A DNA stretch of 64,000 bases from Fusobacteria bacterium ZRK30 (lineage in GTDB: Bacteria > Fusobacteriota > Fusobacteriia > Fusobacteriales > Fusobacteriaceae). The translations under genes were made by a program, and so were the position numbers. The stretch lies in the NCBI GenBank assembly GCA_024628785.1, contig CP102405.1, forward strand, positions 124,001 through 188,000. The letters are read 5' to 3'. A model generated the notes under the pieces. That model was not told where the DNA came from and made no database searches. It saw only the letters and a list, made by a program, of their open reading frames with translations. The number at the start of each line of letters is the position of its first letter. Positions within the stretch are counted from its first letter, which is position 1. This document shows, piece after piece, positions 35,717-55,177 of the stretch.

Positions 35717-35842
35717 TTAGCCTGATTCAGATGTTGTTGATGTTACTGAGGGTTGTTCCCTAATTTGACCTATATCTTCATTGCATAAAACTAAGGTAAA
35801 AAACATTAAAACCCCAATTAAAAGTAATATTCTTCTATTCAT
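35717..35842 (-). CDS. Small exported peptide (41 aa), candidate Phr/SHP-like signalling pre-peptide
   Basis: A 41-codon gene with a strong ribosome-binding site (AAAAAGGAGGTTATATCT before ATG), 17 bases downstream of the TPR regulator's stop codon and in the same direction. The product has a basic start (MNRR), a hydrophobic stretch (ILLLIGVLMFFTLVLC, residues 5-20) and a polar tail of 21 residues ending VTSTTSESG. That is the layout of an exported pre-peptide whose C-terminus is processed and re-imported to act on a TPR regulator, as in Rap-Phr or PlcR-PapR. C20 could also be read as a weak lipobox. No database family is recognised; the signalling role is inference from size and context. 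Confidence 0.65.
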   Translation of the reverse strand: MNRRILLLIGVLMFFTLVLCNEDIGQIREQPSVTSTTSESG

Positions 35843-35859
35843 AGATATAACCTCCTTTT

Positions 35860-37068
35860 TTATAAATTAATATTTTTAATTAAAAATAATGCTTCATATT
35901 CCATATTGTTATCAGTATAATATTTTAATATAGACATAATAAACTCTGAATTTAGATATTTAAATTCAATTTGTGTAATGTGTTTTATGAGTTTTGCCTG
36001 TTTTAGAGGCTTTCTTCCATAGAGAATCACAAGAGATTTAATACTATCTAAGTGTTTTTCAATATTAAAAGAGGTGTTGTTGAAGTTTATTTTAAAAGCA
36101 ATCTCTTTTTCAAATGCTTCTACAGCCTTTACCTTATCTTTTAAATATAAATAAATTTTTCCTATGTTCCAATAAGTTTGATAAAAAATTTCCCCTTTGA
36201 GACTATTTAAGGTAATTTCTAATTTTTTTAAAGTATTTATCATAAGGGCTTCATACTTCATCTCTTTAGCACACGAAAGAATATTGACATAACATATTTT
36301 TAGCTGTTTGTAATTTGTAGGGTCGCTTACACTTTTTTTAAAAAATTCAATGGCTTTTTCATATTCACCTAGATTTTGATAACAAATACCTAAATTGGTA
36401 TAAGAGTAGTAAAAAGGTTTGGTAATTTTCTGCATATTTACAACAACTTCAAAACATGAGATGGCTTTATTCCATTTTTTTGTTCTTAAAAGATTTACTC
36501 CGGTATTATAGGCCAAATATGCCTTTATTTTATATGGTGCGAGATTGATTTCTTTTTGATATTTTAGGTATATTTCATAGGTTAATCCTATCTTTTCCAA
36601 TCTAATTACCTCAATTAAGATTGAATAAAAGAAGTTAGAGCAATGAAAGTTATTTAATAGATCGTAGTAGATCTTTAAAGCCTCTTCTTTCTTACCTATC
36701 TTTTGATTGTGTTTAGCTATAATATATCTATATTTACAGCTATGAATTTCTTTTTCTCGTCCAAATAATTCTATTTCTTCTTGTTTTTCTTTGGAGTAGA
36801 TTGTTCTACCTATAAGGCTGTTGTTCACTAATTTATCTAGCTCTTGCTGGGGAGTAATATATAGGTCTTCTATAGTAATAATTTTATTTATATTTCTTTC
36901 TTGAAAAATTTTATTAAGTGAAGTTACCAAGCATGGTAAATATTTTGGCTTTAAAGGTGTCTTTCCACTTCGAACTTTATATAATAAAGCTAAAGTCATT
37001 TTTGGGTTTTCTAGTTCTTTAATTCCTATTTTATATTCTTTTATAAGTTCAAATATTTTATTATTCAT
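35860..37068 (-). CDS. TPR protein with N-terminal HTH-like segment (RRNPP-like regulator)
   Basis: A 402-residue protein. The first 60-70 residues (MTLALLYKVRSGKTPLKPKYLPCLVTSLNKIF) resemble a degenerate XRE-type HTH. From about 95 to the end are helical tetratricopeptide repeats, e.g. YTNLGICYQNLGEYEKAIEFFKK and NIGKIYLYLKDKVKAVEAFEKE. HTH plus TPR of about 290-450 residues is the plan of Rgg/PlcR/NprR/PrgX peptide receptors. The tiny exported-peptide gene immediately downstream supports that. The region upstream carries TTCTAA repeats at about 20-base spacing, possible binding sites. An ordinary TPR scaffold cannot be excluded. Confidence 0.7.
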   Translation of the reverse strand: MNNKIFELIKEYKIGIKELENPKMTLALLYKVRSGKTPLKPKYLPCLVTSLNKIFQERNINKIITIEDLYITPQQELDKLVNNSLIGRTIYSKEKQEEIELFGREKEIHSCKYRYIIAKHNQKIGKKEEALKIYYDLLNNFHCSNFFYSILIEVIRLEKIGLTYEIYLKYQKEINLAPYKIKAYLAYNTGVNLLRTKKWNKAISCFEVVVNMQKITKPFYYSYTNLGICYQNLGEYEKAIEFFKKSVSDPTNYKQLKICYVNILSCAKEMKYEALMINTLKKLEITLNSLKGEIFYQTYWNIGKIYLYLKDKVKAVEAFEKEIAFKINFNNTSFNIEKHLDSIKSLVILYGRKPLKQAKLIKHITQIEFKYLNSEFIMSILKYYTDNNMEYEALFLIKNINL

Positions 37069-37104
37069 AAGCCCTCCTTATTTTAATAAAAGTATATAAC
37101 AAAG

Positions 37105-37169
37105 TTCTAAAAAAATAGAAAGATTTCTAAAGAATTATATTTTAGAAAAAAAATAGGAAAAAATTCTAA
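37105..37169. promoter_or_regulatory. Phased TTCTAA repeats upstream of the TPR regulator
   Basis: TTCTAA occurs at 37105 and 37125, TTTAGAA (inverse) at 37141 and TTCTAA at 37164, roughly two helical turns apart. They lie between the divergent regulator and RiPP genes, where regulator operators would be expected. The AT-rich setting raises the chance of coincidence. Confidence 0.35.
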
Positions 37170-37229
37170 TTTCTATGTTTGTTTTAAAAAAAATTGAAAA
37201 TTCATTTTAATAAAACTTACGTTGTCAAA

Positions 37230-37646
37230 TTAAATGCAACACTTTTCAATTTCACCCCAAAATACTTCTTTTGGGGTTTTCCAATTTAAACACTTCCTTG
37301 GTCTATTATTAATTTTGTTTACCGCTTTATAAAATTCACATCTCTTTATCTTACTAAAAATAGTCCCTTTAGGGAAAGTTCTCCTTAATAAACCGTTTGT
37401 ATTCTCATTTGTTCCTCTCTCCCATGAGTGATAAGGGTTAGCAAAATAAGCTTTAATACCTAATGCTTCCTCTAATTCTTTAAATTTAGAGAATTCTTTC
37501 CCGTTATCCGATGTAAATGTTTTTATGTATTCTTTAGGTATATATTTAAAATTCTCTATTGTTGCCTCATTAAAAGTATCTGATTTTCTATTAATCATTA
37601 GCTCCGCTACAAGATATCTTGATTTCCTATCAACATAAGTCATCAT
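37230..37646 (-). CDS. IS30 transposase, C-terminal frame (orfB)
   Basis: A 138-residue frame carrying most of the integrase core: MTYVDRKSRYLVAELM, the second Asp in FTSDNGKEFSKF and the Glu in ERGTNENTNGLLRR. It continues the upstream frame after a one-base shift; alone it lacks the HTH and the first Asp. It overlaps the upstream frame by four bases (ATGA). Confidence 0.85.
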   Translation of the reverse strand: MMTYVDRKSRYLVAELMINRKSDTFNEATIENFKYIPKEYIKTFTSDNGKEFSKFKELEEALGIKAYFANPYHSWERGTNENTNGLLRRTFPKGTIFSKIKRCEFYKAVNKINNRPRKCLNWKTPKEVFWGEIEKCCI

Positions 37647-38218
37647 AGCACCTTTTTTCCTGCGCCAACGATAGTATCGCTTTCAAAATGACCAATCTCA
37701 CTTCTATCATTCGCTTCTTCAGACCTTTCTTCTATCATCTTTTTATTAGGGATTTTACCCCTTGTTTCTTTCAATCCTCTAGGCTTTTGTTTGCCTTTTC
37801 TAGTTAAAAGGTATTTAGTACTCTCCGTAAGAAAATCAAGATATATTGCTCTATAAATTGTTTTAAATGAAATAGAATATTGGTTGTCTAATTTAGCTCT
37901 TCCTGATATTTGTTCTGGACTCCAACCTGATTCTAACTTTTCTTGAATATCTACCAAAAGGATCGAATCTCTTAATTTGTGCTTTCTTCCACAAAGTTGT
38001 TTTCTTTTTTTGTATAAAAACTGGGCTTTATTAGGAGTGTACTCACCATCAACTGAATTTCTATTAATTTCTCTATAAATACTAACTCTATTTTTCTTTA
38101 ATTTAGCTGCAATAAAACTAATTGATTTTTTTTGCGCTAAAAATTTAAATATACTTTCTCTTTCTTCAATGGTAAAATGTTTATGATTCATAAATACTCC
38201 TTTAATGTTTGGTCGCAC
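37643..38218 (-). CDS. IS30 transposase, N-terminal frame (orfA)
   Basis: A 191-residue frame with the IS30 N-terminal HTH (HFTIEERESIFKFLAQKKS, RVSIYREINRNS) and the first catalytic Asp (GHFESDTIVGAGKK). It ends three codons after an A-AAA-AAG heptamer (37652-37658, leftward). A -1 shift there joins it exactly to orfB to give the usual family sequence, so the gene may use programmed frameshifting. Confidence 0.85.
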   Translation of the reverse strand: MRPNIKGVFMNHKHFTIEERESIFKFLAQKKSISFIAAKLKKNRVSIYREINRNSVDGEYTPNKAQFLYKKRKQLCGRKHKLRDSILLVDIQEKLESGWSPEQISGRAKLDNQYSISFKTIYRAIYLDFLTESTKYLLTRKGKQKPRGLKETRGKIPNKKMIEERSEEANDRSEIGHFESDTIVGAGKKVL

Positions 38219-38343
38219 TTACATTATACCAAGGAAATATTTATGAATTTTTTTTGTTGCATTTAATTATACAATTCAAGAAATAATATACTACAGTAAC
38301 ACATTAGGAGAGAGTTAAAAATAAATGAAAAAGGAGGTGAAAA

Positions 38344-38421
38344 ATGAAAAAAATTAATTATACTGTTACTAAAACACAAAGACATTGTGGTGGTGGTTGT
38401 TGTGGACATTCGGAGTGGTAA
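38344..38421 (+). CDS. Cys/Gly-rich RiPP precursor peptide (25 aa)
   Basis: A 25-codon gene with a strong ribosome-binding site (AAGGAGGTGAAAA before ATG). The product has a leader-like start (MKKINYTVTKTQRH) and a core CGGGCCGHSEW with cysteines at 15, 19 and 20. A radical SAM gene with CxxxCxxC follows 78 bases later. Short Cys-rich peptides beside radical SAM/SPASM-type enzymes are typically thioether-bridged RiPPs (sactipeptides or ranthipeptides); Clostridial Cys-rich peptide/CcpM pairs are the nearest analogy I know. The modification is inferred. Confidence 0.75.
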   Translation: MKKINYTVTKTQRHCGGGCCGHSEW

Positions 38422-38499: not shown

Positions 38500-39182
38500 A
38501 TGTATAGTAATAACTGTTACCTAAGTAAAGATAATGTTTTATTTAATTTAAATGATTTTAATCTTTATGAATTAGATTCAAATATATCTACCGAAGTGAA
38601 AAAAATAATGTCTGGATATAAAAATTCAAATAGTGAACTTACTAAGTATTTTAATAAACAGCAAGAAAGAGTAGTAGATGAAACTTTAAAAATCTTAAAA
38701 ATTAACGTTAATAATAAGTGCAATTTAAAGTGTAAGTATTGTTATGCTTCTGAAGGAACTTATAATGGGGAATCAAAAGAGATATCTGATAATACTATTT
38801 TAGAAGTAGAAAAATTAATAAAAAAGTTTAAGACGATAGATACTATAACATTTTTTGGAGGAGAGCCTATGCTTTCTATAAAAAAAATTAAAAATATTTG
38901 TGAAAGAACTAGGAAAATTAATGAAGATATATCATTTTTTATGCAAACAAACGGAACAACTCTCTCTCAAGAAGGGATCAAAATAATAAAAAAATATAAT
39001 ATTCAAGTAACCTTAAGTGTTGATGGTCCTAAAGAAATTAATGATAAAAATAGAGTTTTTAAAAATAATAAAGGAACTTATGATAAAATTTATAAAAATT
39101 TTAAAAAAATTGAAAATCATATAAATTTTATCCAAGCAACATATTGTAAAGAAACTAAAATGACTAAAGAAGAAATTTATAG
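38500..39182 (+). pseudogene. Radical SAM peptide maturase, truncated by IS21 insertion
   Basis: About 227 codons of a radical SAM enzyme. The cluster motif is CNLKCKYCYASEGTY (about residue 78), followed by ITFFGGEPMLSIKKI, MQTNGTTL and VTLSVDGPKEINDKNR, all typical of SPASM-type peptide maturases. The N-terminal 70 residues probably bind the precursor leader. The frame enters the insertion sequence at 39183 and stops at 39228. The C-terminal region with auxiliary Fe-S cysteines is missing, so the enzyme is probably inactive. A good ribosome-binding site (AAAGGAGGAATAAA) precedes the ATG. Confidence 0.85.
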
Positions 39183-39264
39183 TGTAAATGTCAATCAAGA
39201 ATTGACCCATGTGGCAGTTAATTTTTGACCCACCTAAGGGTAATTAAAAAGTGACCCACCCTGC

Positions 39265-54733: not shown

Positions 54734-55177
54734 TTATCCACCACATTTTATGGTAGTTATTAAACTCTTTATGTCTTCCTTCTTTTTTTCCAGATGAGAC
54801 ATTATTTTTTCCACATCTTCTGCCGATCTTATTGTCCAAGTTAAAGTCAGTGTATCTCCCTCTAAATTTTTAGGGACATCCACTACCAATCCCTTATTTT
54901 TTATTGAATTTGATAACCCCTTAACTTTATTCATAGCTTTACTCATAACAGGATTTCTATATTCCCTTATGATCTTTAAAAACTTCATTGTGTCGTGTTT
55001 TCTGTTATTGTTTAATTCTATCTTCATTTTTTCTATAAATTCTAAAAAATTTATACCCTTTATATTTTTTAATTCCTTAAAAAATTCTCCTACCTCTTTT
55101 TCAGCAGAATATGAAAGGTGCAGGTGTTTTTCTGCAAACTCTATTATATCTCTATCTTCAATAAATTTATATTCCAT
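54734..55177 (-). CDS. Uncharacterised protein (about 147 aa)
   Basis: A lysine/glutamate-rich, mostly helical protein without a recognised domain. It starts MEYKFIEDRDIIEFAEKHLHL after AGAGGGGTTT; an open frame extends ten codons upstream. A central segment VVDVPKNLEGDTLTLTWTIRSAEDVEKI is beta-like. It lies 14 bases upstream of purB and downstream of rimI. Confidence 0.6.
   Translation of the reverse strand: MEYKFIEDRDIIEFAEKHLHLSYSAEKEVGEFFKELKNIKGINFLEFIEKMKIELNNNRKHDTMKFLKIIREYRNPVMSKAMNKVKGLSNSIKNKGLVVDVPKNLEGDTLTLTWTIRSAEDVEKIMSHLEKKKEDIKSLITTIKCGG

Follow-up and report, generated by a model that had tools for sequence, protein, structure and literature searches.

Within the window, by which we mean the whole 64-kb stretch of DNA analysed, a gene for an HTH and TPR protein is closely followed by a very small gene, and the question raised by this locus is whether the two constitute a peptide receptor and its propeptide in a fusobacterium. 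The original prediction had proposed a pair resembling Rap/Phr or Rgg/SHP. Based on the evidence set out below, we consider the pair to be an RRNPP-like, autoregulated intracellular peptide-sensing module with a probability of roughly 0.72.

The probable receptor and propeptide genes of the window

The larger gene (35860..37068, minus strand) is an ORF encoding 402 residues, in which TPR repeats are matched by Pfam and an N-terminal XRE-type HTH is recognised by profile comparison and through the paralogs. The ATG of the second gene (35717..35842, minus strand) lies 17 nt past the receptor stop codon and is preceded by a perfect Shine-Dalgarno sequence, AAGGAGGT (35850..35857, minus strand). 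Its 41-residue product, a putative propeptide according to its sequence, a propeptide filter, the family alignment and an HMM search, consists of MNRR, with two Arg near the start, and the 16-residue hydrophobic segment ILLLIGVLMFFTLVLC, together forming a 20-residue export sequence, followed by the 21-residue polar tail NEDIGQIREQPSVTSTTSESG. These features bear out the original prediction, which had described a 402-residue HTH-like and TPR protein, a 41-codon gene 17 bases beyond its stop codon with a near-perfect ribosome-binding site, and a small product with a charged start, a 16-residue hydrophobic segment and a polar 21-residue tail.

The propeptide filter accepts ORFs of 20-65 aa with a basic start, an uncharged hydrophobic core, a polar tail and a Shine-Dalgarno sequence, and in the 64-kb window, read on both strands (128 kb in all), the 41-aa ORF was the only one to pass. 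Since this ORF is returned alone and almost all paralogous receptors of the genus have a homologous ORF behind them, the pair in the window is more than a chance juxtaposition. The export features of the propeptide recognised by this home-made filter are an n-region, an h-region and a plausible cleavage site. A lipoprotein was also considered and rejected, the Cys lying outside a lipobox (Leu at -1) and most paralogs having Ala or Ser there. As regards the features used by RRNPP_detector (PMC10075063), the receptor length of 402 aa falls within 250-500 aa, the required TPR HMM match is provided by Pfam TPR_2 (1.7e-13) and TPR_1 (4.1e-11), and the adjacent propeptide, sought at 10-100 aa and -60 to 400 bp with a strong RBS, is found as 41 aa at +17 nt behind AAGGAGGT.

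Searched on its own against Pfam, the window receptor matched TPRs only and no HTH. When the first 80 residues of the paralogs were made into a profile, hhalign matched it to a profile of other XRE-TPR proteins of fusobacteria (98.7%, E 2.3e-16), and all ten of the XRE-TPR proteins in that comparison profile match HTH_3. By this profile match to HTH_3-positive relatives, an HTH is present in the window receptor at residues about 4-57 (36898..37059, minus strand), with a type B recognition segment, LALLYKVRSGKTPL, placed by alignment. When the domain was modelled alone, helices appeared where expected; a Foldseek search with this HTH-only model gave lambda-repressor-like proteins as best matches, none significant. 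The full-length single-sequence model is weak (mean pLDDT 66), and Foldseek returned with it TPR proteins in general and nothing more specific. The original prediction had been staked on an HTH with a concave peptide groove and on conservation and translation of the small ORF: of these, the HTH was found by profile comparison with relatives, and the ORF is conserved in relatives, with the export sequence kept and the tail variable.

The TPR region, defined by Pfam TPR matches, conservation and model helices, covers residues about 110-402 (35863..36741, minus strand). Three asparagines, N188, N225 and N262, occupy the same position of three successive repeats at a spacing of 37 residues; all 15 sequences compared, down to about 25% identity, have N188 and N262, and 14 have N225. 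Every RRNPP member has a conserved Asn that touches the peptide backbone (PMC6458997), and this asparagine ladder, as placed by sequence, may likewise contact a peptide in the TPR groove.

Distribution of the pair in Fusobacteriota

In addition to the window receptor, the 3.6-Mb genome encodes intact paralogs that are 69% and 61% identical to it, as well as one frameshifted copy. Among 98 Fusobacteriota genomes searched, close relatives of the receptor were found in five genomes of the same genus, with 2-5 receptors per genome in the better ones, and relatives at 26-29% identity in three other genera. Downstream of the receptors of the genus lie homologous ORFs of 41-45 aa, for example MNKKLLIYIGLLMFFTLVLCDEDIGQIGKHPPLTPTSFESN (L020) and MKTKCLIFLGVLLLFSITFANKDDGQGRSAPKVPTDISQIIFESN (L027), which at most units begin 14-21 nt past the receptor. 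In two other Fusobacteriaceae genera, the nearest relatives are accompanied by a divergent secreted ORF of 30 aa (L032) or 41 aa (L033). The search for further fusobacterial TPR genes with tiny secreted ORFs, suggested in the original prediction, thus yielded paralogous pairs in the genus and in two other genera, the layout being Phr/PapR-like (co-directional, downstream) in the former and Rgg/SHP-like (divergent) in the latter. At L033, several short peptides with a GG-type leader, MKELQLNGITELNE(E/Q)EMM(M/N)IDGG, bacteriocin-like, are encoded 0.4-3.2 kb upstream of the receptor, beside the divergent propeptide gene.

In the tree, the paired receptors of all three genera, L032 and L033 among them, fall together in a single clade with branch support 100/99. 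L029, which is truncated and has no peptide, and L025b, which has no such peptide either, are counted in it because they fall inside the genus. No locus of the other XRE-TPR proteins in the family passed the propeptide filter (0/39), and pairing is therefore a property of the paired-receptor clade. The XRE-TPR proteins of loci L109-L147, of about 400-435 aa and often one per genome, occur in many Fusobacteriaceae genera and have no adjacent propeptide. A scan of genome contigs with the receptor alignment, using a generic TPR pattern, returned unrelated TPR proteins only, and a scan of viral sequences gave no matches. A phage or plasmid origin of the pair was considered and found unsupported, with no match in phage or plasmid collections.

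Throughout the propeptide family, conservation covers the export part and the residues just past the likely cleavage site, whereas the tail varies. Comparison of the orthologs L027 and L021 places six of seven amino-acid changes in the tail and four of five silent changes in the export part. A propeptide HMM applied to the 98 genomes gave 13 matches below E 1e-10, each next to a receptor or what remains of one, and no strong match elsewhere. Eleven adjoin a full-length receptor, ten of them downstream and one divergent (L032), although L032 and most of the other ten are themselves rows of the profile and their scores are not independent. A further match is found at L030, 2.2 kb behind its broken receptor. 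The last is at the scar locus L179 (G055:C2, about 54880-55100), where the receptor has been deleted and a decaying propeptide gene directly follows the operator and promoter.

Two groups of irregular units count against an RRNPP-like reading. The propeptide is missing or displaced at L029, L025b and L030. Furthermore, a poly-A run of 7-10 bases stands behind the propeptide ATG in L023, L024, L025, L026 and L028, and is in frame in two of these; in L023, L024 and L026 the propeptide ORF is out of frame at the run, the remaining frame being open and similar in two of the three. Phase variation, slippage or an assembly error are possible explanations.

Predicted operator, modular inheritance and proposed mechanism

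An inverted repeat, NNNGAA-N16-18-TTCNNN, is present in almost all receptor promoters, its left arm lying 101-108 nt before the start codon. In the window this predicted operator is TTAGAA-N16-TTCTAA, designated type B (37142..37169, unstranded), upstream of the receptor promoter, and it was recognised by an anchored test, a shuffling null and genome-wide matches; the anchored test was used because a generic inverted-repeat scan is too weak per locus in AT-rich DNA. At least five of the six arm pairs were matched in 12 of 13 tested promoters and all six in nine, against at most 1.35% and at most 0.5% per locus, respectively, in shuffled promoter sequences, although the pattern was defined on the same promoters, most of them related, which keeps the shuffles from being an independent test. 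Closer to one are the scar locus in G055 and the specificity of the operator across the genome: in the 3.6-Mb genome, searched for types A and B, the type A pattern has one match, at the type A receptor L030, and the type B pattern two, at the window receptor and at L027, both type-B receptors. The one tested promoter below five of six arm pairs belongs to L031, which has a transposase gene upstream, and the L023 promoter was too short for the test; the operator region appears to have been replaced at both. The three variable operator bases fall into the sets ACT, TTG/TTA and AAT, both arms being altered together.

The predicted -10 element of the receptor-propeptide operon, TATACT (37091..37096, minus strand), lacks a good -35 and was located from the sequence, aligned promoters and paralog geometry; an automated choice of the -10 fell elsewhere, and TATACT at -28 places the operator centre at about -71. 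In almost all units the spacing to the -10 is constant and puts this centre at about -72 relative to the inferred start, and most receptor promoters are likewise without a good -35.

Divergently from the window receptor lie a putative RiPP precursor gene encoding MKKINYTVTKTQRHCGGGCCGHSEW (25 aa, Cys/Gly-rich; 38344..38421, plus strand), proposed from its sequence and from a like arrangement in L030, and a gene for a PapB-like radical SAM/SPASM peptide maturase (38500..39228, plus strand), truncated by an IS21-type insertion. An IS30-type element (37222..38274, minus strand), recognised by transposase ORFs and terminal inverted repeats, separates receptor and RiPP gene, whose start codons would be about 222 nt apart upon its removal. 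L030 (G000:C2, about 1122000-1124000) is the second locus at which the pair is divergent from a radical-SAM RiPP gene, with a gene for a similar precursor, MKIIVIPKNEAFEMEARHNCCNGNTGGAS, that starts 227 nt from the frameshifted receptor and is followed by a maturase gene. Divergent neighbours at other units include MFS transporters. Judging from this gene order, the likely regulatory target is the operon itself and sometimes a divergent biosynthetic or export gene.

Distances between HTH segments and between operators are correlated (r 0.955, p 2e-4; 0.958 after removing TPR), as are those of TPR regions and propeptides (r 0.78; 0.59 with p 0.002 for the tail alone), and the correlations of HTH with propeptide and of TPR with operator are not significant. 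The window receptor is itself a natural chimera, its HTH being 82% like that of L027 and 39% like that of L020, and its TPR 81% like that of L020 and 65% like that of L027. Because each correlated pair is physically adjacent, recombination between paralogs could yield both correlations with no functional coupling; the changes of the operator in both arms are the part that recombination leaves unexplained.

The gene pair, the HTH, the operator, the TPR asparagines, the co-inheritance and the operon layout are, at the level of sequence, supported; we infer the remaining steps, namely export, processing and import of the propeptide, its binding to the receptor and the sense of regulation. We hypothesize that the receptor, as a dimer, would bind the inverted repeat ahead of its own promoter and control the operon of receptor and propeptide as well as, at some units, a gene divergent from it (a RiPP with its radical SAM maturase, or an exporter). 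The propeptide of 41-45 aa would be exported by Sec and cleaved after the hydrophobic segment, part of the variable tail giving rise to a mature oligopeptide, which an Opp-type permease could re-import and which, lodged in the TPR groove along the asparagine ladder, would alter DNA binding of the receptor. Activation with a positive feedback loop is moderately preferred over derepression, because the operator lies about 72 bp upstream of the inferred start and the promoters are mostly without a good -35.

Such a module could sense other cells or the cell's own periplasm. LpxC is encoded in the genome and shows that the cell has an outer membrane, so that Sec export alone would leave the propeptide in the periplasm, which counts against the RRNPP-like reading as a whole. 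If that reading is nevertheless correct, the pair could, though less probably than not, be a cell-autonomous timer between periplasm and cytoplasm, or a sensor of export state, rather than as quorum sensing, the peptide being re-imported by the cell that made it, as the site of Sec export and the abundance of Opp-type binding proteins (16 of the SBP_bac_5 type in the genome) would allow. The number and diversity of specificities fit signalling between strains better, and mature RRNPP peptides are short enough to pass through porins.

Two further explanations dispense with peptide sensing altogether. The secreted peptide could be an effector, bacteriocin-like or periplasmic, with the HTH-TPR protein merely its regulator and the TPRs sensing something else or serving as a scaffold for dimerisation; this we find unlikely, since the propeptide covaries with the TPR region but not the HTH, the asparagine ladder is conserved, the tail is short and polar unlike that of most bacteriocins, and no dedicated exporter or immunity gene recurs at all units, even though RiPP or GG-leader bacteriocin-like genes are found near some of them, bacteriocins also show variable tails and export is predicted from sequence features alone. 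Still less probable is a general stress or metabolic XRE-TPR regulator, as the peptide-less sister groups may be, co-transcribed with a small envelope protein of other function. The many sister XRE-TPR proteins that have no adjacent peptide speak for such a regulator, but the pair is kept in one clade across three genera and two orientations, and it is the tails that diversify, with the export sequence and the first part of the tail conserved. We accordingly retain the reading of the pair as an RRNPP-like peptide-sensing module.

Relation to known RRNPP systems

The core of the original prediction, an RRNPP-like receptor and propeptide in a fusobacterium, is well supported; its label did not hold, the window receptor giving no match at E up to 1 to the RRNPP-type profiles of Pfam or NCBIfam (Rgg, ComR, PlcR/PrgX, Rap). 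The named RRNPP subfamilies are likewise absent among the families listed for its relatives, and RNPP_C is absent from the genome. On this sequence evidence we call the family a putative new RRNPP-like lineage, outside the named subfamilies. Intracellular peptide-signalling pairs of this type are so far not known outside Gram-positive bacteria and their phages. A large published survey of RRNPP signalling covers Firmicutes and viruses only (PMC10075063), and a 2026 paper still describes such signalling as Gram-positive (PMC12998947). The literature searched contained no relevant paper on RRNPP or peptide signalling in fusobacteria; the original prediction had supposed, with reserve, that no such system was described in Fusobacteriota.

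We are somewhat inclined to the broader view that RRNPP-type signalling reaches beyond Gram-positives, a diderm phylum having its own diversified lineage in which operator with HTH, and TPR with peptide, are shuffled between paralogs as separate modules, and in which signalling is adapted to an outer membrane. If true, the fusobacterial lineage extends this type of signalling to outer-membrane cells and raises the question of how the peptide crosses that membrane. About ten receptors, peptides and operators, natural chimeras included, would then provide ready sets for studying the evolution of peptide and DNA specificity.

Among known systems, PlcR-PapR and Rap-Phr of Bacillus share the receptor followed, in one operon, by a propeptide of 40-50 aa with a Sec-type signal and a variable C-terminal tail; the fusobacterial pair differs from them in having no Pfam RNPP_C or RapH_N match, another operator and a cell with an outer membrane. 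AimR-AimP, the arbitrium system of SPbeta phages, likewise combines an HTH and TPR receptor with a small secreted propeptide, and Asn residues hold the peptide in AimR as Asn is conserved in the fusobacterial receptors; its operator, too, is a pair of inverted 6-bp boxes set far apart, by 25 bp for AimR against a shorter 16-18 bp here (PMC6458997). In contrast to AimR-AimP, the fusobacterial pair is without a match in phage or plasmid collections, and its operator lies upstream of the receptor's own promoter, whereas that of AimR precedes a separate target such as aimX. From Rgg/SHP the window's genus differs in its downstream, co-directional peptide gene, its longer propeptides with a Sec-type signal and the missing Rgg profile match, but in L032 and L033 the peptide gene is divergent from the receptor as in Rgg/SHP. 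Likewise, at the window locus and L030 a putative peptide-sensing regulator adjoins a radical-SAM RiPP cluster, as Rgg/SHP does with RaS-RiPP in streptococci, where regulation of RiPP genes by Rgg/SHP is established (PMC13361665, PMC8092268), and the fusobacterial pair may offer a possible switch for silent RiPP clusters.
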